Program-made: the position numbers and the translations under genes
Shown: positions 128 to 48,064 of the stretch, piece by piece
Layout of the letters: every line of letters starts with the position of its first letter
Position numbering within the stretch: the stretch's first letter is position 1
Virus record (IMG/VR): IMGVR_UViG_3300048591_000671
Span: 1 to 48,186 of that record
Length of the DNA: 48,186 bases
Reading direction: 5' to 3' (one strand)
DNA from: a virus
The notes under the pieces: generated by a model
The model's input: the letters and a program-made list of their open reading frames with translations, nothing else
The model's database searches: none
Told to the model about the DNA's origin: nothing

Positions 128-891
128 GCGTTGGGAAAACGACGATGACCGTGACGGTGGGGGCAGGATTGGCGATCCTTGGTAAGCGTGTGTTGATCAT
201 CGACACTGACGCCCAAGGGAACGCGGCACTTGCCTTCGGTATGGAGCGCGAGTATGGCCTGTATGATCTGCTGGTGCGAAAAGCGCCTTGGGTCGATGTG
301 CTGCGTAATGTCCCCTATACCGCGTGGGCAGAACCCGGCGGCGTCGACGATGGAAAAGGCAAGCTGATGCTACTGCCTTCGAACCACGAGACGCGCCATA
401 TCCCGGGAACGATCAGCGATCCATTTGCGCTGCTGCGCCGGGTGGCGGAGATCTCACCGCATTTCGACTTTATTCTGGTTGACACCGCGCCAACGCCGAG
501 CATGCTCCACAGCGCTGTGTACGCAGCGACACAGGATTTCGTTTACGTGACTCTGCCGGAAATGTGGAGCCTGTCGGGGTTGGCAGACACGCTGGAGATC
601 GTCAAGGAGTACAACCCGTTTCGCGAGAGTAAGAAAATGCCTCCGATTCGGTTGGCTGCGATCCAGCCGGTGCGCGTCCGGCTACGGACAATCGAGCATG
701 AAGAAAATATCGCTGAGATTCGACACCACTTTGGGACAGACGTGGTTGCGCCGCCGATGCGTGATTTGATCGCGTGGTCAGAAAGCGCGAGCCGCAGGAA
801 GTCAATCTTTGCTTACGCTCCGGACAGCGAAGCTGCTGCGGATGCCTGGGCCGCGATCGAAAACATTCAGGGGGTGCTATATGCCAAGTAA
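91..891 (+). CDS. parA: ParA-family partition ATPase
   Basis: This 266-residue protein starts with a deviant Walker A motif, KGGVGKTT (residues 11-18). It continues with the switch-region string DTDAQGN (about 39-45) and a Walker B strand FILVDTAP near residue 132. This is the classic ParA/MinD/Soj pattern, close to the usual ParA length and without an N-terminal HTH extension, so it is a type Ib/Soj-like size class. Such ATPases bind DNA non-specifically and pull partner-bound plasmid copies apart. AGGGGG lies just upstream of the ATG. The gene overlaps the next one, which encodes a DNA-binding protein, by 11 bp, the usual parA-parB arrangement. The role in stable inheritance of a plasmid prophage is inferred from this context and from the lack of an integrase. 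Confidence 0.92.
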   Translation: MARVITFGNHKGGVGKTTMTVTVGAGLAILGKRVLIIDTDAQGNAALAFGMEREYGLYDLLVRKAPWVDVLRNVPYTAWAEPGGVDDGKGKLMLLPSNHETRHIPGTISDPFALLRRVAEISPHFDFILVDTAPTPSMLHSAVYAATQDFVYVTLPEMWSLSGLADTLEIVKEYNPFRESKKMPPIRLAAIQPVRVRLRTIEHEENIAEIRHHFGTDVVAPPMRDLIAWSESASRRKSIFAYAPDSEAAADAWAAIENIQGVLYAK

Positions 892-1726
892 GAAGCGCGA
901 GGCACGGGGCACGGTTCTAAATGGGATCTTCATCCCAAACAGTGATGAAACATCACTGAGCGAGCACGACCGGGCGCTGTTCGGAGGCATTCATCCCTCG
1001 CATGGTATCGAGGTGGACGCGGACGGCAGCATCGTGATCGGGGCTTACCGGCTGCGCAAGACCGGGATCGAGATGGAGCATGCGGCGGACTTCGAGGACT
1101 GGGAGCGCGTGGGCATGCTGCTGCGCCAGATGGAGGGCGCGCTGCAGTGGATGATCGGGGACTGGTATGTGCACGGTGAGCACATGTGGGGCAGCATGTA
1201 CTCATCGAAGGCTCAGTCGCTGGGGTTCGAGCAAAAGACGCTGCGCGAATATGCTTACGTTGCCCGAAACGTGCAATTGTCCATTCGAATGGACAATTTG
1301 ACGTTTGCCCACCATCAGGTCGTCGCGTCCGAGGAGGAGCAGATGCAGCTGCTGTATCTGCGCTATGCGGAGACCACGGGCGTCACGGTGGCGAACCTGC
1401 GCAGTGATCGCCGGGTGCTCCAAGAGTACGACGACACGATGGAAGTCGACCTGCTCAACATGGCGATCAAGAAGCGCTGCCGGGTCATCGATCTCGAACG
1501 GGTGCAGGAGGATCTGGCCGGGCGTGAGCTGACGCACATCCTGCCGCTGGGCGACCAGAACGCGCTCAAGCGCCTGCTGAACTTCAAGGTCGAATACCTG
1601 CAAGGGTACGACAGGGAGCAGCTGCGGGATACGCTCAAGATGATCAACAAGGCGCGCGACGCGATCAACCGGCTTGAGGAGGCGATCCAGACGACGCTGG
1701 ATACCGGAGAGCCGCCGAAGCTATGA
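881..1726 (+). CDS. LmbU-like DNA-binding protein, candidate ParB-type partner of ParA
   Basis: A 281-residue protein beginning at ATG 881 behind AGGGGG, overlapping parA. It is not a canonical ParB: I see no GERR-type box or ParB/Srx nuclease-like fold motif. The middle (about residues 80-160) carries strings I associate with the LmbU family of actinobacterial regulators. These are a WMIGDWYVHGE segment, then LGFEQKTLREYAYVARNV, then S-R--NL-F-HH-VVA. The last 120 residues are charged and probably helical. LmbU proteins are dimeric DNA-binding regulators, and as I recall LmbU targets the palindrome CGCCGGCG, which is strongly over-represented in this genome. Position after parA makes a centromere-binding role attractive. 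This is inference; a transcription regulator is the alternative. A long perfect palindrome lies inside the gene (1275-1298). Confidence 0.7.
   Translation: MPSKKREARGTVLNGIFIPNSDETSLSEHDRALFGGIHPSHGIEVDADGSIVIGAYRLRKTGIEMEHAADFEDWERVGMLLRQMEGALQWMIGDWYVHGEHMWGSMYSSKAQSLGFEQKTLREYAYVARNVQLSIRMDNLTFAHHQVVASEEEQMQLLYLRYAETTGVTVANLRSDRRVLQEYDDTMEVDLLNMAIKKRCRVIDLERVQEDLAGRELTHILPLGDQNALKRLLNFKVEYLQGYDREQLRDTLKMINKARDAINRLEEAIQTTLDTGEPPKL
1275..1298. repeat. 24-bp perfect palindrome inside the LmbU-like gene
   Basis: The 12 bases AATTGTCCATTC (1275-1286) are followed with no spacer by their exact reverse complement (1287-1298). It is AT-richer than its surroundings and lies in codons for the conserved region around residues 132-140. 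A perfect palindrome this long inside a coding region is very unlikely by chance. Possible roles are an autoregulatory operator, a partition nucleation site or an element of replication. Confidence 0.75.
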
Positions 1727-2427
1727 TGCGCTGCACGGTGTGCGACTGCCACCTCGACGTTCCGCGGGATCGTCGGGGGCGGTTCAAAAAGGTCAAGAAA
1801 CGCGAGACGGTTTGTCCATTTTGCAGAGAGGAACTGTACATGCAGAACTACCGGAGTGAGGCGCGCGATCTGGCGGTGAAGTGGGCGCAGGAGCTGCTGC
1901 GCGGTGACTTTCTGGTGCTAGACACCGAGACGACCGGGTTGGATACGAACCGGTCGGAGATCGTCGAGCTTTCGATTATCGACAGCGCCGGCGAGGTGCT
2001 GCTGAACACGCGCGTGAAGCCCACGCCGGCGGGCATGCAGCAGCTTGTGACGCCGTCCGGGCGCGGGCTGTGCGCGCGGGATATACACGGGATTGGGCCG
2101 GAGCAGCTACAGGACGAGCCGGAGTTCGCGGACGTGTATCCGGCGCTGAGCGAGCTGGTGCGCGACCGGCTGGTGATCATTTACAACGCCAGCTATGACT
2201 GGCAGCTCCTGCAGTCGCTGTGCATGCGCAACGACCTGCCCACGCTGATGAGCCGCAACGTCGAGTGTGCGATGATGCGCTACGCGGAGTGGTTCGGCGA
2301 CTGGAACGATTATCACCAGTCGTTCCGCTGGCAGAAGCTCGAAGGCGGCGATCACAGCGCGCTCGGCGACTGCGTGGCGACGCTCAAGGTGATCAAGCGG
2401 ATCGCCGGAGAGGTAGAGCGGGCATGA
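1723..2427 (+). CDS. DnaQ-like 3'-5' exonuclease with N-terminal zinc knuckle
   Basis: A 234-residue protein with the three exonuclease motifs of the DEDDh family. Exo I is LDTETTGLD (D67, E69), Exo II is YNASYDWQLL (D159) and Exo III is HSALGDC (H211, D216). These residues bind two metal ions and cleave nucleotides from DNA 3' ends, as in the DNA polymerase III epsilon subunit. The N-terminus adds a four-cysteine knuckle (CTVC about 4-7, CPFC about 31-34), probably for zinc and nucleic acid contact. The start overlaps the preceding stop. No polymerase III alpha or other replicative polymerase is visible, so it may proofread for the host enzyme, process recombination ends or degrade host DNA. 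Confidence 0.85.
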   Translation: MMRCTVCDCHLDVPRDRRGRFKKVKKRETVCPFCREELYMQNYRSEARDLAVKWAQELLRGDFLVLDTETTGLDTNRSEIVELSIIDSAGEVLLNTRVKPTPAGMQQLVTPSGRGLCARDIHGIGPEQLQDEPEFADVYPALSELVRDRLVIIYNASYDWQLLQSLCMRNDLPTLMSRNVECAMMRYAEWFGDWNDYHQSFRWQKLEGGDHSALGDCVATLKVIKRIAGEVERA

Positions 2428-2828
2428 TTGAGGCGAGTCATCCGCACCGCTTTGCCGGGGATAATGTGTATGTGGCGATTGATGGCCAGCAGGTTGGGGC
2501 GCAGAAAGCGGTCGTTGAAATCCTAGCATCAAGAAAGATCTCGCGTTGGGATGATCTGATCGATTACGCCATCCAGATCTGGCTTGAAATCTGGTTGGAT
2601 ACGCCAAGCTTTCACAGGGTGATGGCGCTGAAAAAAAACGAGGGCTATCACGTGACGATCGGGCCGGAGGGCAACGCGTCGGGGATGCCCAAGCACGCGC
2701 AAAAATGCATCCTGACGAATCAACCGACGGTTGAAGATGCGCGAAAAGGGCGCGCGTTAATCTGCCTCAATCTGATACAGTCGGAGGGGCCGGAAGTCAA
2801 CGTGTTTTTCGGAGGCGTGTTCGAATGA
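2424..2828 (+). CDS. Hypothetical protein, 134 aa
   Basis: The start is ATG 2424, overlapping the stop of the exonuclease gene, which points to translational coupling. I do not recognise the family. The sequence is mixed alpha/beta with a tryptophan-rich segment (SRWDDLIDYAIQIWLEIWLD, about residues 41-60) and no cysteine cluster, signal peptide or membrane segment. It ends in a hydrophobic strand and overlaps the next gene by 4 bp. The context is the replication/partition operon. Confidence 0.75.
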   Translation: MIEASHPHRFAGDNVYVAIDGQQVGAQKAVVEILASRKISRWDDLIDYAIQIWLEIWLDTPSFHRVMALKKNEGYHVTIGPEGNASGMPKHAQKCILTNQPTVEDARKGRALICLNLIQSEGPEVNVFFGGVFE

Positions 2829-3022
2829 ACACTGACTGGTGGGATCTTCAGAAGAAGCGGTGCGCGTGCGGATGCGGGCGCATGTTGAACCCGCCTGCAA
2901 CCGGGGATAACTTCGCGACCGAGGCCTGCATACTGCGGGCGCTGAAGCAGGCCGGAATGATCACCGGCGAGGAGTTCGATACCGCTATCCGGGAGATGGA
3001 GCGGCGAGAAGGTGACGCATGA
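2825..3022 (+). CDS. Small cysteine-rich protein, 65 aa
   Basis: A 65-residue protein with CACGCGRML near residues 13-21, a CxCxC knuckle typical of small phage zinc proteins with the 'CACGCG' signature. The rest is helical and charged. It overlaps neighbours on both sides by 4 bp (ATGA), so it is translated as part of the operon. Function is unknown; nucleic acid or protein binding through a single zinc knuckle is plausible. Confidence 0.75.
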   Translation: MNTDWWDLQKKRCACGCGRMLNPPATGDNFATEACILRALKQAGMITGEEFDTAIREMERREGDA

Positions 3023-3231
3023 AATGTGAGCGCTGCGGGAAAGAACAGAAGCGGCTGCTCTTTACGCTGGCGGTGCTGGTCGATGCAGACCGCGCCGGCG
3101 AAAAGATCGAGGTCTGCTACGAGTGCAGCGAAGCGATTGACCCCACCAGCCTGGGCGCGCTGCAACGGCTGCGGGAATCGCTCGTCCGGCTGTGGGATGC
3201 CATCGTGGCTGCGGTGCGAGGTGCGGCGTGA
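3019..3231 (+). CDS. Small zinc-ribbon protein, 70 aa
   Basis: The 70-residue product has CERCG at residues 3-7 and CYEC at about 34-37, two CxxC pairs about 30 residues apart, as in zinc ribbons. A helical C-terminus ends in an amphipathic Ala/Val stretch. Its stop overlaps the next start (TGATG). No function can be assigned beyond probable metal-stabilised binding. Confidence 0.75.
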   Translation: MKCERCGKEQKRLLFTLAVLVDADRAGEKIEVCYECSEAIDPTSLGALQRLRESLVRLWDAIVAAVRGAA

Positions 3232-3551
3232 TGAGCGAACAGGCAACGGAGCAGCGGGACGTCGAGGCGTTCTCTGGGTTTGGGGTAACGGTCGAGCAGG
3301 CCGCACAAGCCTTTTACGACATCATCCAATATGAGATCGACGAGATCTTCGCCGGCGATGTGGAGGCGTGGCAGCACTTCAACGCCAGCATCATCACCTT
3401 AGGTGAACTGATCGCGCGGAACGTAAAGCGCCAGCAGCGGGCCGCTGCGCTGAGGCGGCACGTCGAGGTGTTCGCGCTGTGCGTACTGTGGGCGCTGCTG
3501 GTAAGCGTGCCGCTGACTCTGGGGCTGCTGCTGATCGCGGGGCAATTGTAA
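3231..3551 (+). CDS. Membrane-anchored small protein, 106 aa
   Basis: The start is ATG 3231, overlapping the preceding stop. The first 80 residues are acidic and helical. The C-terminus (about 83-103) is a strong transmembrane segment of Val, Leu and Ala, so this is probably a C-terminally anchored protein with a cytoplasmic domain. I do not recognise it. A perfect copy of the dispersed 16-bp palindrome overlaps its stop codon at 3547-3562. Confidence 0.7.
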   Translation: MSEQATEQRDVEAFSGFGVTVEQAAQAFYDIIQYEIDEIFAGDVEAWQHFNASIITLGELIARNVKRQQRAAALRRHVEVFALCVLWALLVSVPLTLGLLLIAGQL

Positions 3552-3562
3552 ACGCGTTTACA
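3547..3562. promoter_or_regulatory. Dispersed palindrome TGTAAACGCGTTTACA, perfect copy
   Basis: Perfect 16-bp palindrome over the stop of the 3231 gene and about 24 bp before the next start. The same element is perfect at 10543 and 45375 and near-perfect at 13893, 17874 and 36961. It is probably a binding site for a phage repressor. Confidence 0.8.
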
Positions 3563-3585
3563 TTACTGATGATAAGGAGATGCTG

Positions 3586-4493: not shown

Positions 4494-4499
4494 GGTGCT

Positions 4500-6310: not shown

Positions 6311-6745
6311 ATGCCGAAATCGACAGCAGATCAGAGCCTAATTGACTATCGCCGGGAGATGGTGGCGAAATACCTCCTGCGCAAGTACTCGCTGCGCCGG
6401 ATTGCAAAGGCGCTTGCAGATGAGGGGAGCATCAACCCGGACACCGGCGGCGTATGGGACGCGACCACGATCATGCGCGATGTGCGCGCGCTGCGCACCG
6501 CATGGCAGCGCGAGGCAGGCGTGAAGGTCGAGCGGCATCAGGCGCAGTTGATGGCAGAGCTGGACGAGGTCAAGCGCGAGGCGTGGGGGGCCGGTGATTA
6601 CGACGCGGTGCGGCGGGCCATCGAGAGCCAGTGGAAGATCATCGCGCCGGCGGGCAAGCTGCCGGAGAGCTTCAAGCCTATCACGTTCACGATCACCGGT
6701 GTCATTGAGGATGACGGGGACGGCGAGACGGATGCGGCTGAATGA
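6311..6745 (+). CDS. terS: Terminase small subunit
   Basis: The 144-residue protein starts with a helix-turn-helix-like region (RREMVAKYLLRKYSLRRIAK-AL). It continues with DATTIMRDVRALRTAWQREA and a helical oligomerisation region, and ends in an acidic tail. Size, fold pattern and a 4-bp overlap with the large terminase gene identify it. It should bind the packaging start site and deliver DNA to the motor. It starts at ATG 6311, and the 170-bp gap upstream holds the divergent HNH promoter but no clear plus-strand promoter. Confidence 0.75.
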   Translation: MPKSTADQSLIDYRREMVAKYLLRKYSLRRIAKALADEGSINPDTGGVWDATTIMRDVRALRTAWQREAGVKVERHQAQLMAELDEVKREAWGAGDYDAVRRAIESQWKIIAPAGKLPESFKPITFTITGVIEDDGDGETDAAE

Positions 6746-10542: not shown

Positions 10543-10558
10543 TGTAAACGCGTTTACA
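10543..10558. promoter_or_regulatory. Dispersed palindrome TGTAAACGCGTTTACA, perfect copy
   Basis: Perfect copy 3 bp after the MuF-like stop and upstream of an intrinsic terminator and a TTGACA box. Its place between transcription units fits a repressor-bound block to transcription. Confidence 0.8.
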
Positions 10559-13877: not shown

Positions 13878-14242
13878 GCATGCCGGGCTGGATGCAAACG
13901 CGTTTACAGCGTGCCGGCCAGCGGTATCTGGTGGATCGGTGTGACATCCTGCGCGAGACAGAGACGGTCTCGGCGGCGGGCTACATCACGCTGGAGACGG
14001 CGGTGATCGCGGCAGAGGTTCCCTGCCGGGTGCTGCCGGACAACACGAAAGACACCGATATGGCCTCGGGCATGCAGGAAGTTCGCAGGGGAACGTTCGA
14101 GATTGTCCTGCCGGTTGGAACCGATCTGCAGGCTAAAGACCTTGTCCGCATCGCTATGGTCGAGCATGAGGTATTCGAGATCAAAAGACCGATCAGCGAC
14201 GCGGTGTTTTTGCAGGCGCGGATCGTGCGGGTGCAGGCATGA
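13874..14242 (+). CDS. Head-tail stopper/joining protein
   Basis: The 122-residue beta-rich protein (VPCRVLPDNTKDTD...RRGTFEIVLPVGTDLQAKDLVRI) has the size and strand pattern of SPP1 gp16/HK97 gp10-class stoppers that close the capsid until the tail joins. It lies in the conserved order adaptor, stopper, tail-completion, terminator. Codons 7-12 contain the near-perfect dispersed palindrome at 13893. Confidence 0.7.
   Translation: MSMPGWMQTRLQRAGQRYLVDRCDILRETETVSAAGYITLETAVIAAEVPCRVLPDNTKDTDMASGMQEVRRGTFEIVLPVGTDLQAKDLVRIAMVEHEVFEIKRPISDAVFLQARIVRVQA
13893..13908. promoter_or_regulatory. Dispersed palindrome, one mismatch
   Basis: TGCAAACGCGTTTACA, 15 of 16 matches to the consensus, inside the start of the stopper gene. 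A site inside coding sequence fits a roadblock or silencing site better than a promoter operator. Confidence 0.65.
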
Positions 14243-16398: not shown

Positions 16399-19311
16399 AT
16401 GTCTGTAGTAGCGCGCCTGTCGGTGGTCATCGGGGCCAACATCACCGGGCTGACGGCGGGCATCAACGAGGCCAATAACAAGGTCGGCAATTTCAAGAGC
16501 GGGTTCGAGAATAAGCTCGACTCGCTTGGCGGCAGCATGACCCGACTCGGCACGAACCTCTCACTGGCGCTTGCGCCGCTGACCGGGTTTGGGCTAGCCG
16601 GAATCAATACCGCGATGGATTTCGAGTCGGCGCTGGCTGAGATACAGGTGCGTGCCGGGCTTACCAGCGACGAGCTGGATATGGTATCTAACAAGGCCAA
16701 GCAGCTTGGAGCAGATACCGTGTTCAGTGCGCAGGACGCGGCAAATGCATTCCTTGAACTTCTCGCGAGCGGTCAGAACATTGATGAGGCGATGGTTACA
16801 ATCGACTCGGTGATGGTGGCTGCTGCAGCCAGCGGGGAGGGGCTTGGCAAGACCGCCGACACGCTTACCGATATCATGGCCGCATTCAATATTCAGCTTA
16901 CGACCGTGCCGACGAACTTTGCGGCACTTCGCTCCGAGATTGGCGTTACTGATCAGATGTTTACTGATTTCGGTAACGGTATTGATGTACTCGAAACCGA
17001 TCCCATCTATCAGTTGGCTGAGGCACTGGACGTCAGCGTTGGTGAAGTCTACGAGATCTGGAATGCCAGCAAGGTGCTGACGCCCGAGATCCAGACGCTT
17101 GCGGACACATTGGAAATCAGCAGCGATCAGTGGAAAGAATACAATCGCTGGTTGATGTCTGGCGGGGAGCAGGGTGGGGTATCCGATGGCATTCGCGAAC
17201 TTATCGATGCCACCGGTTTGAGCGGAACCCGCATCACGGAGATGATGACCGGGTACAACCAAGCAGCAATGGTCACGGAATCGCTTGCTTTGGCCGCGGG
17301 AGCTTCCAGCGCTGACATTGCCAGCCTTGGTCAAGGCTTCGCGAACGTTGGTGGTATTGCCCACCTATTTGGTCTGAGCGTCGATGAGACCGCCGCGATC
17401 CTCGCGATTTTTAGCGAAAACGGTATCAAGGGCGCAGAGGCCGGAACGCAGCTTAAAAGCATGCTGCTCAACATGGCTCGTGACACCGATAAAGTTCAAG
17501 GCGCGTGGGCCAAGCTCGGCGTTTCGATGTACGACAGCGCTGGTAACATGCGCGATCTTGACACAGTAATGACTGAGCTCGGTGTGAAATTCGATAACAT
17601 GCCGCTCCAAGAACAGCATCAGTACATGCAGACGCTTGCGGGTAGCTATGGCATTCTCGGTCAAAATGCTCTGCTCAACAGCATGTCCATCGATGAGATG
17701 AAAGACCGCATGTATGAGCAAGCCTCGGCCACCGATGTGGCAACCGCAAAGAACGAGACGCTTGAAGGCAAAGTGAACGCCCTCAAAGGTTCGATTGAAA
17801 CCGCAATGATTGAGGTATTCACCCCGTTCAATGACGACGTTCTCAAGCCAATGGTGAAAAACATCACTGAGATTGTAAACAAGTTTACAGATTGGGCGGA
17901 AGAGAACCCTGAGTTGACACAGCAGATTATTCTGCTCGTGGGTGGGGCTGCGGCACTTAGTGCAGCACTGTTGATTGGGGGCACGATTGTGAGCGGGTTT
18001 GCTGCCGCTATAACTGGGTTGAGAGTTGCGGCGCTGTTCCTGTCCGGGCCGATTGGACTGCTGGTACTGGCTGTGGGCGGGCTGATCGCGCTCATCAGTG
18101 ACACGGGCGTCCAGCAGGGGCTGGCGGCGTGGGGCGAGGCATTCAACACGCTCGGCGTGATCATCGGCAGGCTGAGCGACCGGGTCGGGCGCTGGTTCAA
18201 CAATATGGTGCGCGACGTCCAGATTGCGGTGCTGGAGATGGTCGGGGGCCTGCGGGATGCGATCTACGAGATGAGCGGCGGCACGATCGATATTGCGCCG
18301 AACGTCAACGCGCAGATCGCCGATATCAAGGCGCTCAAACTCACGAGCACGTTCGTCGACAGCTTCACGCAGCTTCTCGGGCATCACCTGGGCAGCGAGG
18401 ACATGGATCTGAGCGGCATGTCGTTCGGAGTGGACTTTGGCGACGGCAACATGAGCACGGTGCTGATGTCGAGCGTGCTGCCCAGCGACTCGGCCATGGT
18501 GAAGCAGTGGGCCAACGACATGGGCTTCGAGGCGCGCAACGCGCTCACGGAGTCACTTGCCAAGCTCGCCGGCGAGGGTGATATCACGGGCCTCAAGATG
18601 CTGGCTCCGCTGGCGCTGGAGCTGGGGATTGCGACGCCATCGGACGAGATGCGGACGGCGGTGAGCGAGAAGCTGGGCGACATCCTCGCATCCGGCAATA
18701 TGGACGACTTCGCGTACTTCCTGCAACTGGCGGTGCAGGCTGACATTGGCATGGACACGCCCAAACTGGCAGGTATGTTCCGGCAGATGGTGATGGGCAC
18801 GCTTGAAGAAGATCCCAACTTCGACGTTTCGATTTACGCCATGGTGGCCGCGATGCTGGGCGTCGACATGGATGATATCGAGGGGCAGGTGACCGGGGCC
18901 ATCGAGGGCGGGAATTACGACACCTCGGTGAACGTGAATGTAAACCCGATTATCAAACTAATCGGGGATGTTGTCGGGGCGATCACGTCGCAGATCCCCA
19001 GCACGGTAACGAAGGCGGTCAATGTGGCAGCCAGCGTGGGCGGGAGCATTCTGGGCGCGATGGGCGTGCCGTTTTTCGACGTAGGGACGCCGAAGATCAC
19101 GCGCGAGGGCCTCGGCTATCTGCACGAGGGAGAGGCGGTGCTGACGAAGGCGCAGGCGGATGCGTGGCGCGCCGGCGTGAAGGGCCGTCCGCAGGCGGTG
19201 GCGGTTGGTGGTTCGACGACCGTCAACCACTACCACATCAACAGCTACGGGCAGAGTCCGGCGCAGCTGGCGCGGCTGCTCGACAAAGAACTCAAGCTGA
19301 GCGGCAGGTAA
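16399..19311 (+). CDS. Tail tape measure protein
   Basis: A 970-residue protein from ATG 16399 (GAGGAG 7 bp upstream). The N-terminal half has the TP901-type tape measure pattern: DFESALAEIQVRAGL, then KQLGADTVFSAQDAANAF, then GLSVDETAAILAIFSENGIK and GTQLKSMLLNMA. About 100 unfamiliar residues (roughly 160-260) are inserted between the first and second part. A hydrophobic stretch near 520-580 could cross a membrane during DNA entry. The C-terminus holds KITREGLGYLHEGEAVLTKAQ, common at tape measure ends. It sets tail length, about 145 nm at 1.5 A per residue. Up to about 18.0 kb the gene is AT-richer than after, which suggests a recombinant. Confidence 0.9.
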   Translation: MSVVARLSVVIGANITGLTAGINEANNKVGNFKSGFENKLDSLGGSMTRLGTNLSLALAPLTGFGLAGINTAMDFESALAEIQVRAGLTSDELDMVSNKAKQLGADTVFSAQDAANAFLELLASGQNIDEAMVTIDSVMVAAAASGEGLGKTADTLTDIMAAFNIQLTTVPTNFAALRSEIGVTDQMFTDFGNGIDVLETDPIYQLAEALDVSVGEVYEIWNASKVLTPEIQTLADTLEISSDQWKEYNRWLMSGGEQGGVSDGIRELIDATGLSGTRITEMMTGYNQAAMVTESLALAAGASSADIASLGQGFANVGGIAHLFGLSVDETAAILAIFSENGIKGAEAGTQLKSMLLNMARDTDKVQGAWAKLGVSMYDSAGNMRDLDTVMTELGVKFDNMPLQEQHQYMQTLAGSYGILGQNALLNSMSIDEMKDRMYEQASATDVATAKNETLEGKVNALKGSIETAMIEVFTPFNDDVLKPMVKNITEIVNKFTDWAEENPELTQQIILLVGGAAALSAALLIGGTIVSGFAAAITGLRVAALFLSGPIGLLVLAVGGLIALISDTGVQQGLAAWGEAFNTLGVIIGRLSDRVGRWFNNMVRDVQIAVLEMVGGLRDAIYEMSGGTIDIAPNVNAQIADIKALKLTSTFVDSFTQLLGHHLGSEDMDLSGMSFGVDFGDGNMSTVLMSSVLPSDSAMVKQWANDMGFEARNALTESLAKLAGEGDITGLKMLAPLALELGIATPSDEMRTAVSEKLGDILASGNMDDFAYFLQLAVQADIGMDTPKLAGMFRQMVMGTLEEDPNFDVSIYAMVAAMLGVDMDDIEGQVTGAIEGGNYDTSVNVNVNPIIKLIGDVVGAITSQIPSTVTKAVNVAASVGGSILGAMGVPFFDVGTPKITREGLGYLHEGEAVLTKAQADAWRAGVKGRPQAVAVGGSTTVNHYHINSYGQSPAQLARLLDKELKLSGR
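17874..17889. promoter_or_regulatory. Dispersed palindrome variant inside the tape measure gene
   Basis: TGTAAACAAGTTTACA: both arms are perfect and only the central CG is changed to AA. It lies far inside a coding region, so it cannot be an ordinary operator. Confidence 0.6.
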
Positions 19312-24968: not shown

Positions 24969-25460
24969 GTGCGCCGGCACTGGAAGTACATCCTGTACGT
25001 GCTGCGCCACAAATGGCACGTGTTCTGGGCGGGGATCTGGCTGGGCGTTGATCCTGTCAGCCTGCTGCTGCACGACTGGGACAAGTTCCTGCCGGGCATG
25101 TGGCGGGCCTACGCCTCGACGTTTTACGCGCCGGATGGCACGAAACAGTACAAGCCGGGCGCGGCGTTCGAACGCGGCTGGAACGCCCATGAGAAGCGGA
25201 ACAAGCACCACTGGCAATATTGGCTGCTGACGTGGGACAGCGGCAAGACGACCGCGCTTGATATGCCGCTGCGTCACCGGCGCGAGATGCTGGCCGATTG
25301 GATCGGGGCCGGGCGGGCACTTGGAAAGCCGTTTACATGGGAATGGTACGCGGCCAATAAGGACAAGCTGCACCTGCACCCGGACACACGCGCATGGATC
25401 GAGCAACGGCTCGACGACATGTGGCAGGAGCATCGTATTAGCACAATCGCAGGGGGCTGA
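24969..25460 (+). CDS. DUF5662-like protein
   Basis: The start is GTG 24969, with AGGTGGAG 7 bp upstream, directly after the endolysin stop. The 163-residue product shows the pattern of the DUF5662 family: HK--VFW-G, then LLHDWDKFLPGMW, then GWNAHEKRNKHHWQYW, then ADWIGAGRALG. The repeated His/Asp residues suggest a metal-binding HD-like helical fold. The family occurs in phages and bacteria, often near lysis or tail genes. I know no established reaction. Confidence 0.7.
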   Translation: MRRHWKYILYVLRHKWHVFWAGIWLGVDPVSLLLHDWDKFLPGMWRAYASTFYAPDGTKQYKPGAAFERGWNAHEKRNKHHWQYWLLTWDSGKTTALDMPLRHRREMLADWIGAGRALGKPFTWEWYAANKDKLHLHPDTRAWIEQRLDDMWQEHRISTIAGG

Positions 25461-26062: not shown

Positions 26063-27490
26063 ATGGGACGGGGTCGGGCGCGGAATTGGCTGGTCGGCGG
26101 GAGCCGGCGGGGAGGCGGCGCGCCGGCGCTGATCTACGGTGTGTCGTGGGATAAATCCAGCAACCCGGTGCTGACGCGCACGGACGACGCGGTGGGCATG
26201 GTGGCTAACGCGGGCGTAGACATGACGCCGGTCACCAATGATTTCGACACTGCGCAGATTTACAGCGAGATCACCGAAGTCACCGATGGCTACGGGAATG
26301 TGTTTGTGCGCATCCCCGCGTTTTACATCCGCAAAACGTCGGGCGCGACGGTGACGTGGCAGATCAGCAAACAGAGTCATGGCGCGGACTGGTATCTACC
26401 CGCGTGCTTCTGGGACTTCACAAATTCGGTTGCCCTGCCTTATGTCGATATTGGCAAGTACACGGCAGGCTTTGATGGCACGCGGATGACCAGCAAGAGC
26501 GGCGAATACCCGATGGTCAGTCAAAACATCGTGACCATGCGGACGCGCGCGCAGGCCAATGGGTCTGCCTACCAGCAGTTAGACATCCATGTGATGGACG
26601 TCCTCACAGTCCTGTTTTACGTGGAGTTTGCGACGCTGCACAGTCAGAGCGTGATGGCCGGGTTTACTGCTGGCGCATACAACGCGAGCCACACCGCGCA
26701 GGCAACTGAGGCGGGGGCTAACCGGGTGGTGGTCACTAACGCGGTGGCGGCGCTGTTTGAGGTGGGACAGAGCATCGGGTTGGGTACGTCGTTGGGTGGC
26801 AACCAGATTTTCGCATACCGGACGATCACATCAAAAGCAGTGGTCGACGCCTCAAACGCTGCGCTCAATTTCGATGGTGCGGCGGTCAATGTGACGACGG
26901 GCAACATCGTCTATTCGGTTGGCTGGCGTTCGGGGTTTAGCTCAGGGATCGCGGCCAGCAGCGGCAGCGTGGGGAGTAATTCGAGCGGTCGGTTCCCAAT
27001 GGCATACAGGGGCGTCGAAAATGTTTGGGGATCGGTCTGGCAGTTTGTGGACGGTCTCAACGTGTTCGAGTCGGGCAGCGTGCATAAAGGTTGGGTGTGC
27101 CGGGACGCGGCCAGTTACGCCAGTAACCTGTTCGCCGCACCCTATGAGGAGCTGTCATATGCCAACAGCCCGACGAATGGTTATACAGTCGAGATGGGGC
27201 TAGACCCTGACCGGCCGTTTGCCAACCTCCCGACTAACATCACGGGAGGCGGGACAACTACGTACTACAGCGATTATTACTGGCGCAGCACTGGCGCGAG
27301 AATTGCCCTTGCCGGCGGGAACTGGGTCAACGGCTCGAATGCGGGCCTGTCGGGTTGGTACCTGAATAACTCGTCGGGGAACGCGAACGCGAACATCGGG
27401 GCGCGCCTTCTTGTTGGCTGCAACACCACGAACTGCGCCCCATATTCCTCACCCCTTGGTGGAAATTCGGCCGAAAAGAGCAGGGGCTAG
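26063..27490 (+). CDS. Diversity-generating retroelement target: C-type-lectin-like receptor-binding protein
   Basis: A 475-residue protein with a Gly/Arg-rich start, a beta-rich domain, and a C-terminal domain of the FGE/C-type-lectin class found in retroelement targets. YRGVENVWGSVWQFVDG lies near residue 315. The end carries GARIALAGGNWVNGSNAGLS, then WYLNNSSGNANANIGARLL (about 411-450), the typical Asn-rich variable region. In known systems this surface binds diverse receptors and is rewritten by an error-prone reverse transcriptase, encoded here 41 bp downstream. The last 25 residues follow the variable region. It is probably displayed at the tail tip. Whether it still diversifies is unclear because no template copy was found. 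Confidence 0.82.
   Translation: MGRGRARNWLVGGSRRGGGAPALIYGVSWDKSSNPVLTRTDDAVGMVANAGVDMTPVTNDFDTAQIYSEITEVTDGYGNVFVRIPAFYIRKTSGATVTWQISKQSHGADWYLPACFWDFTNSVALPYVDIGKYTAGFDGTRMTSKSGEYPMVSQNIVTMRTRAQANGSAYQQLDIHVMDVLTVLFYVEFATLHSQSVMAGFTAGAYNASHTAQATEAGANRVVVTNAVAALFEVGQSIGLGTSLGGNQIFAYRTITSKAVVDASNAALNFDGAAVNVTTGNIVYSVGWRSGFSSGIAASSGSVGSNSSGRFPMAYRGVENVWGSVWQFVDGLNVFESGSVHKGWVCRDAASYASNLFAAPYEELSYANSPTNGYTVEMGLDPDRPFANLPTNITGGGTTTYYSDYYWRSTGARIALAGGNWVNGSNAGLSGWYLNNSSGNANANIGARLLVGCNTTNCAPYSSPLGGNSAEKSRG
27312..27412 (+). other. Probable variable region (VR) of the retroelement target
   Basis: Codons for GGNWVNGSNAGL to NIGARLL are rich in AAC/AAT at alternate positions, typical of adenine-mutagenised VRs. 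Changes such as GTC where AAC is usual would fit past mutagenesis. A GC-rich stretch (GGGGCGCGCC, 27398-27407) follows, as often seen at the initiation end of a VR. No second copy of this sequence was found by eye on either strand. Confidence 0.65.
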
Positions 27491-27531
27491 TAGCTCGATC
27501 GAACACCCTTGAGGCCAACAAGAAAGGTAGT

Positions 27532-28680
27532 ATGAAACGGGTCGGGTATTTGTACGAGAAGATCTGCGATCTGGAGAATATCAGGCTGGCGATCCATAAG
27601 GCATCGCTGGGGAAGCGGCAGAAACTTTTTGTGCGGCAGGTGCTGAGCAATCCGGATCGGTACGCACGTGAAGTTCAGGCGCTGCTCGCGGAAAAGCGGT
27701 ACACGCCCTCGCCCTACACGATCAAGGTGGTGCGCGACGGGCCAAGCCAGAAGGAGCGGGTGATCTACAAGCCGCGATTCTTCCCCGATCAGATCATTCA
27801 CTGGGCGCTGATGCTCCAGCTTCATGATGTGATGTTGAAGGGCATGTACGAATACAACTGCGGGAGTGTTCCGGGCCGCGGCACGGGTTACGGCCAGAAG
27901 ACGCTGCGGCGCTGGCTGGACGCCGATTACAAGGGGACGAAGTACTGCCTCAAACTTGACATTACCAAGTTCTACCCGTCAATTGATCCAGCGCTACTGA
28001 AGGCGATGTTCAGGCGGCGGATCAAAGATGCCGACTGCTTGTGGTTGATCGACACGATCATCGACAGCAGCAGCCCGGGGCTGCCGATCGGCAATTACAC
28101 GAGTCAGTGGTTCAGCAACTTCTTTCTGCAGGGGCTGGATCACTTCATTAAAGAGGAACTCGGCGTGCGGTACTACATCCGCTACGTCGACGATCTGGTG
28201 ATGCTGGGGCCGAACAAGCGGGCGCTGCACAAGGCGCGGATTGCGATCGAGGGTTACCTGAATAACATTCACTTGTCGCTCAAGCCCAACTGGCAGGTGT
28301 TCCTCGTGAACGCGCGGGCGATCGACTTTCTCGGGTTTCGCTTCTATCGCGATAAGACGACGCTGCGCAAGCGCAACGTGCTCCGCATCCGCCGACGGTT
28401 CGCCAAGATCGCGAAAAAGCCGTCGCTCACCTATCAGGACGCCTGCGCGGTTGTTTCGTACTGGGGCTGGATCAGGCGCAGCGACAGCTTCAGGTTCTAT
28501 CACAAGCACGTCAAACCGAAAGTGAGCCTAAGTGCGGCTCGGGAAAGGATAAGCAGACATGTCAAACAGTGTGCCCGACTTCGGGCAAATCGTCGAGTAC
28601 GTGGACAAGGACGGCATTCACCCGGTCAGCCCGGGGCAGCACAGCCTCGACTCGCTGCCAACGCTCGAGGCAGTGCGTGA
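27532..28680 (+). CDS. Reverse transcriptase of diversity-generating retroelement type
   Basis: The product of up to 382 residues has polymerase motifs in order: CLKLDITKFYPSID (motif A, Asp143), GLPIGNYTSQWFSNFFL (183-199) and YIRYVDDLVM (YVDD at 218-221, catalytic Asp220/221). DFLGFRFYRD comes later. The Ser-Gln at 191-192, where group II intron enzymes have a different string, is the mark I associate with retroelement enzymes that copy template RNA with A errors. GAAAGG precedes the ATG. The last 40 codons overlap the next gene and look like non-homologous run-on. No accessory Avd-like gene is seen between target and enzyme. Confidence 0.88.
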   Translation: MKRVGYLYEKICDLENIRLAIHKASLGKRQKLFVRQVLSNPDRYAREVQALLAEKRYTPSPYTIKVVRDGPSQKERVIYKPRFFPDQIIHWALMLQLHDVMLKGMYEYNCGSVPGRGTGYGQKTLRRWLDADYKGTKYCLKLDITKFYPSIDPALLKAMFRRRIKDADCLWLIDTIIDSSSPGLPIGNYTSQWFSNFFLQGLDHFIKEELGVRYYIRYVDDLVMLGPNKRALHKARIAIEGYLNNIHLSLKPNWQVFLVNARAIDFLGFRFYRDKTTLRKRNVLRIRRRFAKIAKKPSLTYQDACAVVSYWGWIRRSDSFRFYHKHVKPKVSLSAARERISRHVKQCARLRANRRVRGQGRHSPGQPGAAQPRLAANARGSA

Positions 28681-36382: not shown

Positions 36383-36979
36383 TTAAGATCCTTTCTTCTT
36401 GTAGGTTTCCGGGATGCGCATCCAGCGCGCAGCGGCTGAGTAGTGAGTCTGGGTTTGCCCGTAGTCGAATATGTAAATGGGGCGCGACACCCATTCGCAG
36501 CGCGGGCAGAGGGGGCTATGAGATCGCGCCTTGCGCTCGCCATTGAAGTCGAGGCCGCAGCGCCGGCAATTGAAGATGCGACCGTCGCCGGCGGCATAGT
36601 CGACGCCGGCCTGCCAAGCGTAGGGATCTCCCGGCTGCAGGTACGACTCGAACATGTCGATCACTTGCTCGTAGGGAGGACGGCGTTTCTCGATCACGAT
36701 CTCGTCGTTTCTGCTGAAATAGCGACCGTCCTCACAGCGCACGTCGTTGATCCAGCCCTTGGTGACGCCCTGCTCGCTGTCGTAGTCGGTCGAACTGGGC
36801 GGCAGGCCGCCCACCATCGTGAAAACGGGCAACGTGTGGATCGCTAAGCTGTGAAAATCGCCCCACACATACAGCGGGCGCGTGATACCGATCACCTCGT
36901 AGGCCCCTGCCGTATAGCTGGGGAGCATCAAGTCACCCGTTTCGATGCCGAACACGGTTTTATAAACGCGTTTACTCAT
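36383..36979 (-). CDS. Zinc-ribbon-containing hypothetical protein, 198 aa
   Basis: A strand-rich N-terminal half and a zinc ribbon near residues 138-163 (NCRRCGLDF, then LCPRCEWV), followed by an aromatic C-terminus. GGAGG lies 10 bp before ATG 36979. Codons 2-7 contain a near-perfect copy of the TGTAAACGCGTTTACA element. Function unknown. Confidence 0.7.
   Translation of the reverse strand: MSKRVYKTVFGIETGDLMLPSYTAGAYEVIGITRPLYVWGDFHSLAIHTLPVFTMVGGLPPSSTDYDSEQGVTKGWINDVRCEDGRYFSRNDEIVIEKRRPPYEQVIDMFESYLQPGDPYAWQAGVDYAAGDGRIFNCRRCGLDFNGERKARSHSPLCPRCEWVSRPIYIFDYGQTQTHYSAAARWMRIPETYKKKGS
36961..36976. promoter_or_regulatory. Dispersed palindrome, 14 of 16 matches
   Basis: TATAAACGCGTTTACT with the 12-bp core TAAACGCGTTTA intact, within the first codons of the 36383 gene. 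It is the only strong copy inside the minus-strand region. Confidence 0.6.
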
Positions 36980-40737: not shown

Positions 40738-40752
40738 TGCAAACTCCTTTAC

Positions 40753-41046
40753 TTAACGCGGGCTTTGGGGCGGCAGCATGTACCAGCCTGCCGGCTCGAT
40801 CTTGGTGACGATGTCGCTGAGATAGCGCTCGTCGAGTGAACGCCACGGGTTGCAGGCGCTCTCGTAAACCATGGTTGCTCCTACCACCATCTGATACTCG
40901 TCAAGCAGCGCATCCATGCCGACATAGCGACCCAACCGAACCCAGCCGCCGCCGGTATAGGGCGGCTGAAGCTGAAGTGAGAGCAAGCCGCTCGCGCTGC
41001 GCCAGACGCACAGCTTCGAGCGGACAGCGAAGTCCGGGCGGATCAT
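40753..41046 (-). CDS. Hypothetical protein, 97 aa
   Basis: ATG 41046 overlaps the ERF gene's stop. The sequence is a mixed fold with several tryptophans (KLCVWRSASGLLSLQLQPPY; GGGWVRLGRYVGMDALLDEY) and no recognised motif. It follows the single-strand annealing gene and may assist recombination, but only position supports that. Confidence 0.65.
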   Translation of the reverse strand: MIRPDFAVRSKLCVWRSASGLLSLQLQPPYTGGGWVRLGRYVGMDALLDEYQMVVGATMVYESACNPWRSLDERYLSDIVTKIEPAGWYMLPPQSPR

Positions 41047-44177: not shown

Positions 44178-44206
44178 CGAAAGCTCCTGTTGACTAAATA
44201 AACGAA

Positions 44207-44275: not shown

Positions 44276-44286
44276 AACGTTTCTTT

Positions 44287-44315: not shown

Positions 44316-44354
44316 ATGAGCATGCATATCGACAGCAGAAGGAACATCGCACCC

Positions 44355-44582: not shown

Positions 44583-44654
44583 GGGCGGCTTAGCGACCAT
44601 GGATGCGTACTCTAAACGTTAATTACGTTGAGTTTACGCACGGAGGCAAGCAAT

Positions 44655-45308
44655 ATGGGCAAGAGGTACAAGGGCGCGACGTTGGCGCTCGCGGGGACGG
44701 CGGCGCTGCTGGTGTGGGTTGAGAGCCTGCGACCAGATCCACAGGTGCAGACGCAGGCCGCGCCGACAGTGGCTGTCAGGACGGCGACGCGGACGCCAGC
44801 CCCTGCCGCGATCAATACAGAGGAGGCGCGTGTGTACAGCAGCGTCAACGAGGCGCTCGCCGGCGAGGTTTCGAAGCTGGAGGGGGTCGAGAGCGTCAAT
44901 CTGGTCTCGACGCTGGGCGGGATCGTGTATCTGGAGCTGTACGTGATCCCGGGGACGATGAGCACGGACACGGCGGACGTGGTGCAGGAGACGATCGAGG
45001 CAAACCTCGGGGGTCTGGAGCCGCTCGAAATCAGCTTTTTGATGGATGATGGCGAGCTGGTGGCGGAGTACCGCTATGATGAAGATCGCCGGCGCTGGGA
45101 CGTTACCGTGCTGATGTCACTCGTCCGCACCCGCCGGGCCGAGGCGGCGCGGGCGACACCGACGGCAGACGCGACCCGGCGCGCCGGCGTGGACTGCCCG
45201 CAGACGTGCGCGACGGCTGTCGCCCTCGGCTGGGGCGCGGCGCGGATCGCGCGGGACTGCCCAGATCTGGATGCCGATAGTGATCAAGTTGCCTGTTACG
45301 GAGATTGA
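44655..45308 (+). CDS. Membrane-anchored protein with excalibur-like C-terminus
   Basis: The start is ATG 44655, with GGAGG 9 bp upstream. The 217-residue product has an N-terminal signal or anchor (GATLALAGTAALLVWVESL) and a Thr/Ala/Pro-rich linker. A domain of about 100 residues follows (SKLEGVESVNLVSTLGGIVY...ETIEANLGGLEPLEISFL). The C-terminus has Cys-Pro-x-Thr-Cys and DADSDQVAC, like excalibur calcium-binding repeats. It is transcribed with, or just after, the regulator, so it may be made in lysogens. Superinfection exclusion or another surface role is plausible. Confidence 0.7.
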   Translation: MGKRYKGATLALAGTAALLVWVESLRPDPQVQTQAAPTVAVRTATRTPAPAAINTEEARVYSSVNEALAGEVSKLEGVESVNLVSTLGGIVYLELYVIPGTMSTDTADVVQETIEANLGGLEPLEISFLMDDGELVAEYRYDEDRRRWDVTVLMSLVRTRRAEAARATPTADATRRAGVDCPQTCATAVALGWGAARIARDCPDLDADSDQVACYGD

Positions 45309-45325
45309 GTGTACTATGTAATGAC

Positions 45326-45355
45326 GCGACCGCGCAGGGCTTCCTGCTGCGGTCG
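45326..45355 (+). terminator. Long hairpin behind the excalibur-like gene
   Basis: GCGACCGC-GCAGG (45326-45338) pairs with CCTGC-T-GCGGTCGT (45343-45356), about 12 bp with one bulge. No T run follows. Terminator or structural role. Confidence 0.55.
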
Positions 45356-45372
45356 TACTGCTAAATAGGCCA

Positions 45373-45392
45373 AATGTAAACGCGTTTACATT
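45373..45392. promoter_or_regulatory. Dispersed palindrome, extended to 20 bp
   Basis: AATGTAAACGCGTTTACATT is a perfect 20-bp palindrome, the longest and best copy of the dispersed element. It lies 158 bp before the replication initiator start. Confidence 0.85.
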
Positions 45393-45530
45393 AAAGGGGC
45401 GGGGCGCTGTTCCCGCCGCGGAAAATAAAAAGACCCGCGTGCCAAGCGAGTCTCCGGTGATCGGGCCGTTGCCAGCGGCGCAATCGCGTAACATCCAAGT
45501 TACGCCCAGTTTAGCACAACTCGGGTGAAT

Positions 45531-45546
45531 TGTAAAAGGGTTTGCA
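45531..45546. promoter_or_regulatory. Dispersed palindrome, degenerate copy at the initiator start
   Basis: TGTAAAAGGGTTTGCA, 13 of 16 matches, overlaps the ribosome site of the initiator gene. Other weak copies are at 25322-25337 (13 of 16) and 48042-48057 (12 of 16). Confidence 0.45.
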
Positions 45547-45549
45547 AAA

Positions 45550-46818
45550 ATGCCTTCGTCAGACTCTGTCCACCAAACCATACAACCGCTGATAGACGCT
45601 CCTAACAGCCGGGTGCTGGTCGTTCTGCGCGACCACTATCTGGAGCTGTGCGGGGGCATGACGTACCCGCAGGCATCGGCAGCGCTGCTCAACTTTTTTG
45701 AGCACTGGACGCGCTGGAAGATGCGTGAGTATCTCGATCAACTGGCGCGCCGGACTCAGGCCCAGCACCGCCGCCGGGCACGGATCGATGCGCGCTTGTG
45801 GATCTACATGAGCCAGCAGCAGCTAGCCGACGAGCTGGCCGGGCTGTTCGGCGTCAAGACGATCCGGGCGGCGCTGCGCGATCTAACTGCTGCCGGCTTC
45901 ATCAAAGTTCGGCTGAATCCCTACAACAAGCTCGACCGCACGCCGCAGTACCTGTTCAACACGCGCAGCATTCACGCAGCGCTGCAGCAGATCCGCGGCG
46001 GGCTGAACGCGGTGTTGAAGGGGCTGGCGCAGTTTTCCGAGGCCATTCGGCAATTATGCCGAGTGGGATCGGCAACCGCGAAGCGTGCAGTCGGCAAGGC
46101 TGCCGAGAGATTCACAAGAGTCTTTACACAAGAATCGCCACAGGAATCACCCACAGGAGAATCTCACGCGCGAGCGCGCGAGGAGAGAGAGATTGACCTG
46201 CCCCTTGCTATCCGGAGCCGGATCAATGGTTATGCTGATTTTGACCACTTCAAGGCCCCGCTGCTCAAAGAGGTGGCTCGACTCGGCGTCGACAAGGCCA
46301 TGGCTCTCCTAGAGGAGCGCTGCTTCGGACGCGCGGAAGTGCGCAGCTGGAAGTACATGCTGACGACGCTGCGCAACGAGCCAGCGCCGGTGCGCATCAA
46401 TTCCCACAGCGCGCCTGCGGCGCAACCGACAGCGCTGGCACAGACGCAGTGCGTCGACGACGTGGTCGACTTCATCGAACAGATCCGCGCGGTGGCGAAA
46501 GCGCCGCGAGGAAGTGTGGATGAATGGCGGATGCCCGAAAAGGACACGCCGGCGTACTACTGGGATGTGACGTACCACCAGCTCAAGCTCCAGCTCGATC
46601 AGGGGACGTTTGACTCGCTGCTGCGCGACGCGCGATTCGTCGAGAGCGACGAGAGCACCTACCGGATTGCTGTGCACAGCAAGTACGCCTGCGAGATGCT
46701 GCAGCACCGCCTGTACCGGAACGTTCACCGGCTGCTGAGCGACGTCGTGAACAGCGCGCGGCGGATGGCCGGGCAGCCTGCGCTCGAACTGAAGCTCGAG
46801 TACGAGGTTCAGTCATGA
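45550..46818 (+). CDS. Replication initiator-like protein with winged helix and DnaA-N-like domain
   Basis: A 422-residue protein. Residues about 75-135 form a winged helix (IYMSQQQLADELAGLFGVKT, then AALRDLTAAGFIKVRLNPYN). Linkers rich in Arg, Glu and Pro follow. The C-terminus (about 340-405) resembles DnaA domain I: WDVTYHQLKLQLDQGTFDSL, then FVESDESTYRIAVHSKYACE, then LQHRLYRNVHRLLSDV. Domain I recruits DnaB or DiaA in DnaA. Winged-helix plus DnaA-N proteins are a known type of plasmid and phage initiator. No helicase is encoded, so it probably loads the host's. It heads the operon leading to parA. Confidence 0.8.
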   Translation: MPSSDSVHQTIQPLIDAPNSRVLVVLRDHYLELCGGMTYPQASAALLNFFEHWTRWKMREYLDQLARRTQAQHRRRARIDARLWIYMSQQQLADELAGLFGVKTIRAALRDLTAAGFIKVRLNPYNKLDRTPQYLFNTRSIHAALQQIRGGLNAVLKGLAQFSEAIRQLCRVGSATAKRAVGKAAERFTRVFTQESPQESPTGESHARAREEREIDLPLAIRSRINGYADFDHFKAPLLKEVARLGVDKAMALLEERCFGRAEVRSWKYMLTTLRNEPAPVRINSHSAPAAQPTALAQTQCVDDVVDFIEQIRAVAKAPRGSVDEWRMPEKDTPAYYWDVTYHQLKLQLDQGTFDSLLRDARFVESDESTYRIAVHSKYACEMLQHRLYRNVHRLLSDVVNSARRMAGQPALELKLEYEVQS

Positions 46819-47231
46819 TCTTCCAGCAGACGCACGGGTTGGTGCTGTCGGGCCGTAAAACACAGACTCGGCGGGTCTACAACCAAGACACCGATCACAT
46901 GGGCGGCAAGATCGTTGGAGCCGGGGCGAACGTCAAGTTCCTGCATGAGCTGTACAGCAAGGGGCGTCTGAAATGGGGTGCATGGTGCGAGTACGCGGTG
47001 CAGCCGGGGCGCGGTAAACCTGCTGTCGGGCGCATCCGGATTACTGGAATGAGCATCGAGCGTCTGCAGAACATCACTGAGGCTGACGCGCGGGCTGAAG
47101 GCGTCGCGAGTATCGAGGAGTTCCAAGCGCTCTGGGAAACGATCCACGGTAAAAAGCCGGGAGAGCGCTGGGCAGATAACCCGCTGGTCGTGGTGATCGA
47201 GTTCGTGTGTGTCGAGGGGATGCAGTCATGA
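46815..47231 (+). CDS. ASCH-domain protein
   Basis: A 138-residue protein with the phage ASCH pattern: HGLVLSGRKTQTRRVYN at the start, GRIRITGMSIERLQNITEAD-ARAEGV in the middle, then FQALWETIHGK and WADNPLVVVIEF at the end. ASCH domains are PUA-like and bind RNA or modified nucleotides; phage members are common but their substrates are unproven. It overlaps both neighbours by 4 bp. Confidence 0.88.
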   Translation: MIFQQTHGLVLSGRKTQTRRVYNQDTDHMGGKIVGAGANVKFLHELYSKGRLKWGAWCEYAVQPGRGKPAVGRIRITGMSIERLQNITEADARAEGVASIEEFQALWETIHGKKPGERWADNPLVVVIEFVCVEGMQS

Positions 47232-48064
47232 CGCACATCACGATGGCGCGGGCCGCGGCGCAGGCGCTGATCGACATGATCTGGGATTACTGCGAGCGGG
47301 CAGAGATGGCCGGCAGCGTGCGGCGCGGCTCGACGGACGTCAAAGATGTCGAGATCGTGCTGATCCCGCGCGAAGGCTGGCTGGAGCATCTCGACATGCT
47401 GGTCGAGGCGGGAGTTATCGACAAGGCGAAGTATGGCGCGAACGGCCAGCACCGCTGGGGATCGAAGTACCGCGGGCTGGTGTATGACGGTGTGCGCATC
47501 GAGCTGTTCGCGGCAGACGCGGACAACTGGGGGTATATCCTGTGGCTCCGGACGGGGCCGGGGGACGCGAACGAGTACGTCATGAAGCAGCTTAAGGCGC
47601 AGGGAAGCAGCCTGAGCGCGCGCGGCGGGTACTGGTGGCGCGGCGACGAGCGGATGGCGACGCCTGACGAGGACGCGGTGTTCGGCCTGCTGGGTATCGA
47701 GCCGATTCCGCCGGCGAGCCGGTCGGTCATCGTTTACCGGGGCGCATTTGCGGCGGCGCAGCGTCGGCAGATCGCGGCGCTGGCCGGGTCACGGTACTCG
47801 ATGCTGCCACAGCATCACGCCCAGCGGGAGGAGTACGAGAGTTCGCCCCCGAACGAGTGGAAACACCGGCTGCTGCCGGGATGGATCGACGAGGTCGAGC
47901 GCGAGATCGAGCAGCTTTACATGGACGGGACGTTCGCAAACCGGATACGGGTCGCAGGACTGCGGAGACTGTCGGCGGCCTACCGGGAGAGATATGCCGA
48001 GGGGCTGGAGCACGGCCTGCCGGATGTGGACAGCAGTGTTTTGCAAAGTGGTTTACAGGAATAA
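47228..48064 (+). CDS. PolX-like nucleotidyltransferase
   Basis: ATG 47228 overlaps the ASCH stop. The 278-residue product has the polymerase-beta catalytic pattern: AEMAGSVRRGSTDVKDVEIV (26-45; GS at 29-30, acidic D40 and E42), then GVRIELFAADADNWGYIL with the third acid, then TGPGDANEYVM and PDEDAVFGLLG. Family X polymerases have these in the palm and thumb. No 8-kDa lyase domain with a hairpin is evident, and the last 90 residues are unfamiliar and helical. It may extend or repair DNA ends. The gene ends inside the terminal repeat. Confidence 0.8.
   Translation: MTHITMARAAAQALIDMIWDYCERAEMAGSVRRGSTDVKDVEIVLIPREGWLEHLDMLVEAGVIDKAKYGANGQHRWGSKYRGLVYDGVRIELFAADADNWGYILWLRTGPGDANEYVMKQLKAQGSSLSARGGYWWRGDERMATPDEDAVFGLLGIEPIPPASRSVIVYRGAFAAAQRRQIAALAGSRYSMLPQHHAQREEYESSPPNEWKHRLLPGWIDEVEREIEQLYMDGTFANRIRVAGLRRLSAAYRERYAEGLEHGLPDVDSSVLQSGLQE

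Follow-up and report, generated by a model that had tools for sequence, protein, structure and literature searches.

Here, we show computationally that the circular phage record IMGVR_UViG_3300048591_000671 (positions 1 to 48,186; this whole stretch is referred to as the window) carries a parA gene overlapped by a gene for an LmbU-family partner with a ParB-type core in its predicted fold and no CTPase domain, that this overlapping pair is conserved in a second circular phage, and that both phages contain the same dispersed 16-bp palindrome. We give even chances to the reading that parA and its partner form a type-I-like partition module with a dispersed centromere, which keeps the circular phage as a plasmid-like prophage. 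We infer that the partner binds the palindrome and loads there, that it activates ParA, and that the module stabilises the prophage.

The original prediction of a parA gene followed by an overlapping LmbU-like gene is confirmed by coordinates and profile matches. These two genes and the replication-initiator-like (rep-like) gene, which precedes them on the circular map, are placed as follows:

91-891, + strand: parA, ParA-type ATPase of 266 amino acids (Pfam AAA_31, 7e-26; PHROG 164 ParA-like, 6e-39)
881-1726, + strand: partner gene, LmbU-family protein of 281 amino acids (NF038070)
45550-46818, + strand: replication-initiator-like gene (PHROG 428 replication initiation, weak match, 6e-4)

The ParA protein has the deviant Walker A motif NHKGGVGKTT that is expected of a type I ParABS system, and the partner gene, which overlaps parA by 11 nt and directly follows it, corresponds to the second gene of such a system by position only. 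It had also been proposed to compare the 281-residue protein with an LmbU profile, and residues 60-186 indeed match NCBIfam NF038070 (LmbU_fam_TF; E=1.2e-25, 90.4 bits), at a score below the curated cut-off of 125 bits; a Pfam search of the partner matched zero families. Its helix-turn-helix (HTH) sequence KTLREYAYVARNV aligns with the actinobacterial TLRNYAWVARRF, and residue R101 of LmbU, which is essential for DNA binding (PMC6510168), is kept as R129. Together with the gene order rep, parA, DNA-binding partner, the lack of a recognised integrase in the scanned window proteins suggests a prophage with a plasmid lifestyle, by analogy with phage-plasmids such as those of PMC7157519.

The second phage with the pair is IMGVR_UViG_3300049311_000002, a circular record of 41,354 bp (G296/L357, hereafter G296). 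Its ParA is 41% identical to that of the window and its partner 41% identical over 157 amino acids, the latter scoring 96.2 bits against NF038070, likewise under the 125-bit cut-off. The two partners are, by sequence, clear LmbU-family homologues. The G296 partner gene overlaps parA by 16 nt and the rep-parA-partner order is the same as in the window, with a rep-like gene just upstream of parA that gives 27-39% matches to the rep-like protein of the window. The recognition helix is near-identical (KTLRDYAYVARSV in G296, KTLREYAYVARNV in the window). In all, 15 genes are common to the two phages, and among these, DNA-binding regulators are predicted in two cases only, the partner and the rep-like protein.

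The AlphaFold model of the window partner has a confident core at residues 65-185 (pLDDT mostly >90) and low confidence outside it; the predicted anatomy comprises a disordered N-terminal tip, a long helix of 33 residues (71-103), an HTH core (105-184) and C-terminal helices (226-275). In a Foldseek search of the PDB, ranks 1-17 were occupied throughout by DNA-binding domains of the ParB superfamily (Noc, ParB, Spo0J, VirB), several as complexes with DNA, with a best probability of 0.99 and an rmsd (root-mean-square deviation) of 2.6 over 101 columns for one Noc entry. A ParB CTPase domain was not found in the partner, which matches no Pfam family and has just ~65 residues, partly of low confidence, before the long helix. 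The partner thus appears, from its model, to be a ParB-type HTH protein by fold and without a CTPase domain, and an LmbU-family protein by sequence. The contrast drawn earlier, LmbU rather than ParB, appears false: the fold search puts ParB-type domains first, and the authors of the LmbU work had themselves modelled the LmbU HTH on Spo0J.

A candidate binding site emerges from the palindrome TGYAA-N6-TTRCA, of which the window contains 8 exact copies and G296 contains 6, all with a spacer of 6, whereas spacers 0-14 other than 6 together yield 2 copies of the dyad per genome. Other viral DNA, with or without LmbU and always lacking the pair, contains 8 copies in 2.66 Mb. The Poisson probabilities (~4e-12 for the window, ~5e-9 for G296) are descriptive, since the consensus was defined on these two genomes themselves, and the spacer control and an independent dyad search are safer guides. 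An unbiased dyad search in G296 returned TGCAA-N6-TTGCA, of the same architecture as in the window, as its top dyad with 5-bp halves. The perfect 16-mer TGTAAACGCGTTTACA and its relatives number 8 in the window within 3 mismatches against 0.02 expected, and a matrix built from four sites finds 14 window sites at or above 10 bits, compared with 1.75 in third-order simulations (maximum 6). Position 3 (T or C) is the main difference between the palindromes of the window and G296, TGCAATAATGATTGCA being G296's own counterpart of TGTAAACGCGTTTACA. The window copies are listed below, none with a strand assigned:

48042-48057: palindrome TGCAAAGTGGTTTACA, ending 92 bp upstream of parA on the circular map
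3547-3562: palindrome TGTAAACGCGTTTACA, perfect
6403-6418: palindrome TGCAAAGGCGCTTGCA
10543-10558: palindrome TGTAAACGCGTTTACA, perfect
13893-13908: palindrome TGCAAACGCGTTTACA
17874-17889: palindrome TGTAAACAAGTTTACA, within the tape-measure gene
25322-25337: weaker copy TGGAAAGCCGTTTACA
36961-36976: weaker copy TATAAACGCGTTTACT
40738-40753: weaker copy TGCAAACTCCTTTACT
45375-45390: palindrome TGTAAACGCGTTTACA, perfect, upstream of the rep-like gene
45531-45546: palindrome TGTAAAAGGGTTTGCA, its end 3 bp upstream of the ATG of the rep-like gene

Characterised ParB-type proteins bind inverted repeats of 16-18 bp (PMC12260392). On sequence grounds, the 16-bp palindrome common to both pair-bearing phages seems a better candidate site for the partner than the octamer CGCCGGCG of the original prediction, discussed below. 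A TGTAAA-N1-TTTACA palindrome in G010 was considered as a counterpart and rejected, being a local cluster at 46 kb with a different spacing; in this LmbU-positive virus (L201) it forms an operator cluster at 45.9-46.6 kb, far from the LmbU gene.

How might such a module work? A partner dimer would recognise TGYAA-N6-TTRCA, of which each genome has about 8 strong copies and a few weaker ones, including candidate sites just before parA (one) and around the rep start (two). After the example of ParATS of plasmid SCP2 (PMC12260392), the dimer would load at the palindromes and may close through its long helix. Its flexible N-terminus would contact ParA and stimulate the ATPase, and the phage plasmid would follow the ParA gradient.

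The window is also rich in a second palindrome, which the original prediction had taken for the partner's dispersed sites:

1986-47716, no strand assigned: CGCCGGCG octamers, 37 copies across the span, an excess not conserved with the pair

The excess itself stands: 37 copies compare with 5.3 +/- 2.2 in dinucleotide shuffles and with 6.2 and 14.3 under trinucleotide and tetranucleotide Markov models, and CGCCGGCG ranks first in over-representation among the 256 octamer palindromes in the window. In called genes there are 32 copies, against 7.6 +/- 2.5 when synonymous codons are shuffled (shuffle maximum 14) and 10.4 +/- 2.9 when codon-boundary dinucleotides are also kept (maximum 18). That the full palindrome is favoured, not just its core, holds as well, as GCCGGC occurs with both flanks 32 times against 10.1 expected, with one flank 23 times against 24.7 and with none 17 times against 14.2. 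One-mismatch neighbours lie at 0.87-1.3 of expectation, so the excess is confined to the exact octamer, as in HIP-type palindromes. Given the GCCGGC core, the flanks are coupled with an odds ratio of 4.9 (p=0.002); 25 bacterial and viral comparison sets yielded no case of significant positive coupling. Several smaller claims also bear up: LmbU does bind CGCCGGCG, in two promoters (PMC6510168), the octamers do lie in different codon frames and in genes of both strands, and 37 CGCCGGC words do end in G, out of a recounted total of 45 instead of 44. The octamer is indeed missing from the HNH gene and the non-coding RNA stretch, an absence that is uninformative at less than one expected site. What fails is the assignment of these sites to the partner, and of the earlier proposal that ParA and its partner act at many dispersed sites we keep the dispersal and replace the octamer by the 16-bp palindrome. 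In the 41 kb of G296, where 7.5-13.5 copies of CGCCGGCG would be expected, there are 0; the octamer is thus neither required nor preserved by the pair, and CGCCGGCG is rejected as the pair's conserved site. G296 furthermore avoids GCCGGC tenfold (5 against 50 expected), the opposite of the window, probably reflecting another restriction system in the host. Pooled LmbU-positive viruses lacking ParA show no excess (135 against 154.5 expected, and 82 against 148.5 in a further set). One co-occurrence of LmbU with octamer excess (G141:C17, 5 against 1.0) was set aside as a 5-kb fragment whose helix does not have the key arginine.

What imposes the octamer on this genome? We regard the excess as separate from the pair and most likely imposed by the host. 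More specifically, it is slightly more probable than its negation that CGCCGGCG is a genome-wide host signature, an HIP1-like iterated palindrome tied to methylation or repair, which the phage has acquired. Iterated GC-rich palindromes, GCCGGC in one cyanobacterium among them, are known to occur with matching methyltransferases (PMC4390886), and the opposite treatment of GCCGGC in the two sister phages is expected if it is driven by the host. Bacterial genomes without LmbU (G267, G188) equal the window's CGCCGGCG density, but not its exactness, and the haloarchaeal tailed virus HJTV-4 (L192), also without LmbU, has 19 copies against 4.9 expected, next to 53 of CCTCGAGG against 4.6 and 52 of CGTCGACG against 13. 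Against a host signature stand the missing flank coupling in the comparison sets, with no sampled genome showing the octamer-exact form, and a tetranucleotide-corrected excess of 0.6-1.4 in sampled bacteria against 2.6 in the window. The window's own methyltransferase is a D12 adenine enzyme that cannot act on GCCGGC, which also rejects it as the cause of the excess. Chloroflexota at first seemed a fitting source of the signature but were rejected, as their genomes show no flank coupling and portal matches there are weak. A 5.8 kb phage fragment (IMGVR_UViG_3300037883_000074, L302) has 8 CGCCGGCG copies against 1.6 expected, with coupled flanks; its terminase is 33% identical to that of the window over 123 amino acids, and no other among the 80 octamer-pair contigs resembles the window.

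Several points weigh against reading the pair as a partition module. The Foldseek E-values of the partner are weak (best 0.24, none <0.2), and sequence profiles link it to neither a ParB nor ParT (for ParT, hhalign P=0.44 and profile E=0.22). The pair is carried by two phages only, the window and G296; ParA was found beside other LmbU-like genes at 0 of 80 genomic loci, 0 of the first 20 viral loci and 1 of 76 further viral loci. As a rule, parS sites known so far lie clustered beside the par genes and are not spread genome-wide. Moreover, the same dyad search recovers an equally dispersed palindrome in phiC31, which is known as the operator of its repressor. Like those operators, the window palindrome occurs in many copies over a phage genome; unlike them, it has a different sequence and is common to two phages with the ParA pair.

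The main rival explanation assigns the dispersed palindrome to a phage repressor, or to another regulator distinct from the ParA partner, as its operator (compare phiC31); the pair would then use another, undetected site. Several copies do lie at or just upstream of gene starts (3547, 10543, 45531), yet the scanned proteins yielded no repressor-like HTH beyond one weak HTH_17 match (E=0.07), and among the 15 common genes it is the partner and the rep-like protein that supply the predicted DNA-binding regulators; we judge this explanation unlikely, if worth keeping in sight. Still less probable is that the partner is a transcription regulator like LmbU, its junction with parA reflecting regulation and not partition. 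The characterised LmbU-family members are transcription regulators, and LmbU-like genes occur in other phages without ParA, beside terminase genes or fused to methyltransferase; the preservation of the overlap and gene order, with rep upstream, at ~41% identity speaks against it. Least probable, and in our view very doubtful, is that the partner binds the 37 CGCCGGCG octamers and that ParA acts on complexes loaded round the circle: LmbU's known site, the conserved recognition helix and arginine, and the octamer-exact, flank-coupled excess all favour it, but G296 with the same pair and helix has no octamer and avoids its core, LmbU-positive viruses show no excess, and the first 1.9 kb of the window, where the par genes sit, contain no CGCCGGCG.

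Elsewhere in the family, LmbU-like proteins are frequent among viruses. In many of these, the LmbU-like domain forms a fusion with an adenine methyltransferase of MT-A70 type (DPPW motif), as in L010, L016, L018 and L024 and at 13 of the 76 loci L357-L432, and an LmbU-like gene adjoins terminase genes in the viruses L005 and L010.

The proposed partition module resembles ParATS of the Streptomyces plasmid SCP2, which consists of ParA, the CTPase-less ParB-like ParT and an 18-bp parS (PMC12260392). In both, the gene that overlaps the end of parA encodes an HTH protein lacking a CTPase domain, of ParB type in the window by predicted fold, with a short inverted repeat as the centromere, a candidate one in the window; the AlphaFold model of the window partner, set against the published description of ParT, likewise has a flexible N-terminus, a long helix before the HTH and C-terminal helices. 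In contrast to ParT, the window partner belongs to the LmbU family and has no detectable sequence similarity to it, and the carrier is a phage, not a conjugative plasmid, with many dispersed candidate sites instead of the one mapped parS. The published parS of SCP2 (L436) probably corresponds to TGTCTCCAATTGGAGACA at 3566-3583, a perfect inverted repeat of 18 bp within the ParT gene, whose TGT...ACA ends are similar to the window palindrome. The parABS modules of the extrachromosomal cluster A mycobacteriophages RedRock and Miko are also phage-borne, with parA/parB and in some repA, and maintain a non-integrated prophage, but their parS consists of clusters of 8-bp direct repeats by the par genes, whereas the window has 16-bp palindromes genome-wide and an LmbU-type partner (PMC7157519). 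With the LmbU-family regulators (PMC6510168, PMC10763038) the partner has in common the conserved domain, the HTH and the essential arginine; it differs in lying outside an antibiotic cluster, in being paired with ParA and, as judged indirectly from the 0 copies in G296, in apparently not using CGCCGGCG.

It is a plausible proposal, though one we hold at somewhat less than even, that the window and G296 represent a new phage partition type, in which ParA works with an LmbU-family, CTPase-less ParB that loads at ~8-13 palindromes round the whole circle as a dispersed centromere, and that the LmbU 'regulators' encoded in antibiotic clusters are related to centromere-binding proteins. This would link the LmbU antibiotic regulators to the ParB-type centromere proteins, until now treated as separate groups, and phages would offer a second candidate lineage of CTP-independent partition, with no sequence relationship to ParT. 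Matched sites and proteins are available from the two sister phages, while the octamer-exact CGCCGGCG excess forms a separate, well-defined puzzle.

Finally, the remainder of the window encodes head, tail, Erf-type recombination and other phage genes, and its first 25 kb have no nucleotide-level relatives among sequenced phages. Circularity of the record is marked by a 127-bp terminal repeat, which is probably an assembly k-mer overlap because the repeat is exactly 127 bp in G296 as well. Palindromes of the form GGNNCC are nearly absent from the whole window (GGCGCC 0 against 43 expected, GGATCC 0 against 18, GGGCCC 0 against 17), which looks like restriction avoidance; GGCGCC is also missing in the structural-gene relatives L161-L164. 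Five perfect copies of AGCGATAACGCT (32700, 33527, 34700, 34721 and 35212) lie in gaps between leftward genes beside TTGACT-like promoters and are probable operators of another regulator. A diversity-generating retroelement spans 27450-28680, with an RT-18 RNA at 27450-27525 (Rfam RF03021) directly 5' of the reverse transcriptase gene at 27532-28680 (PHROG 1423, 9e-111); the tail protein gene that precedes it (26063-27490) is its likely target.

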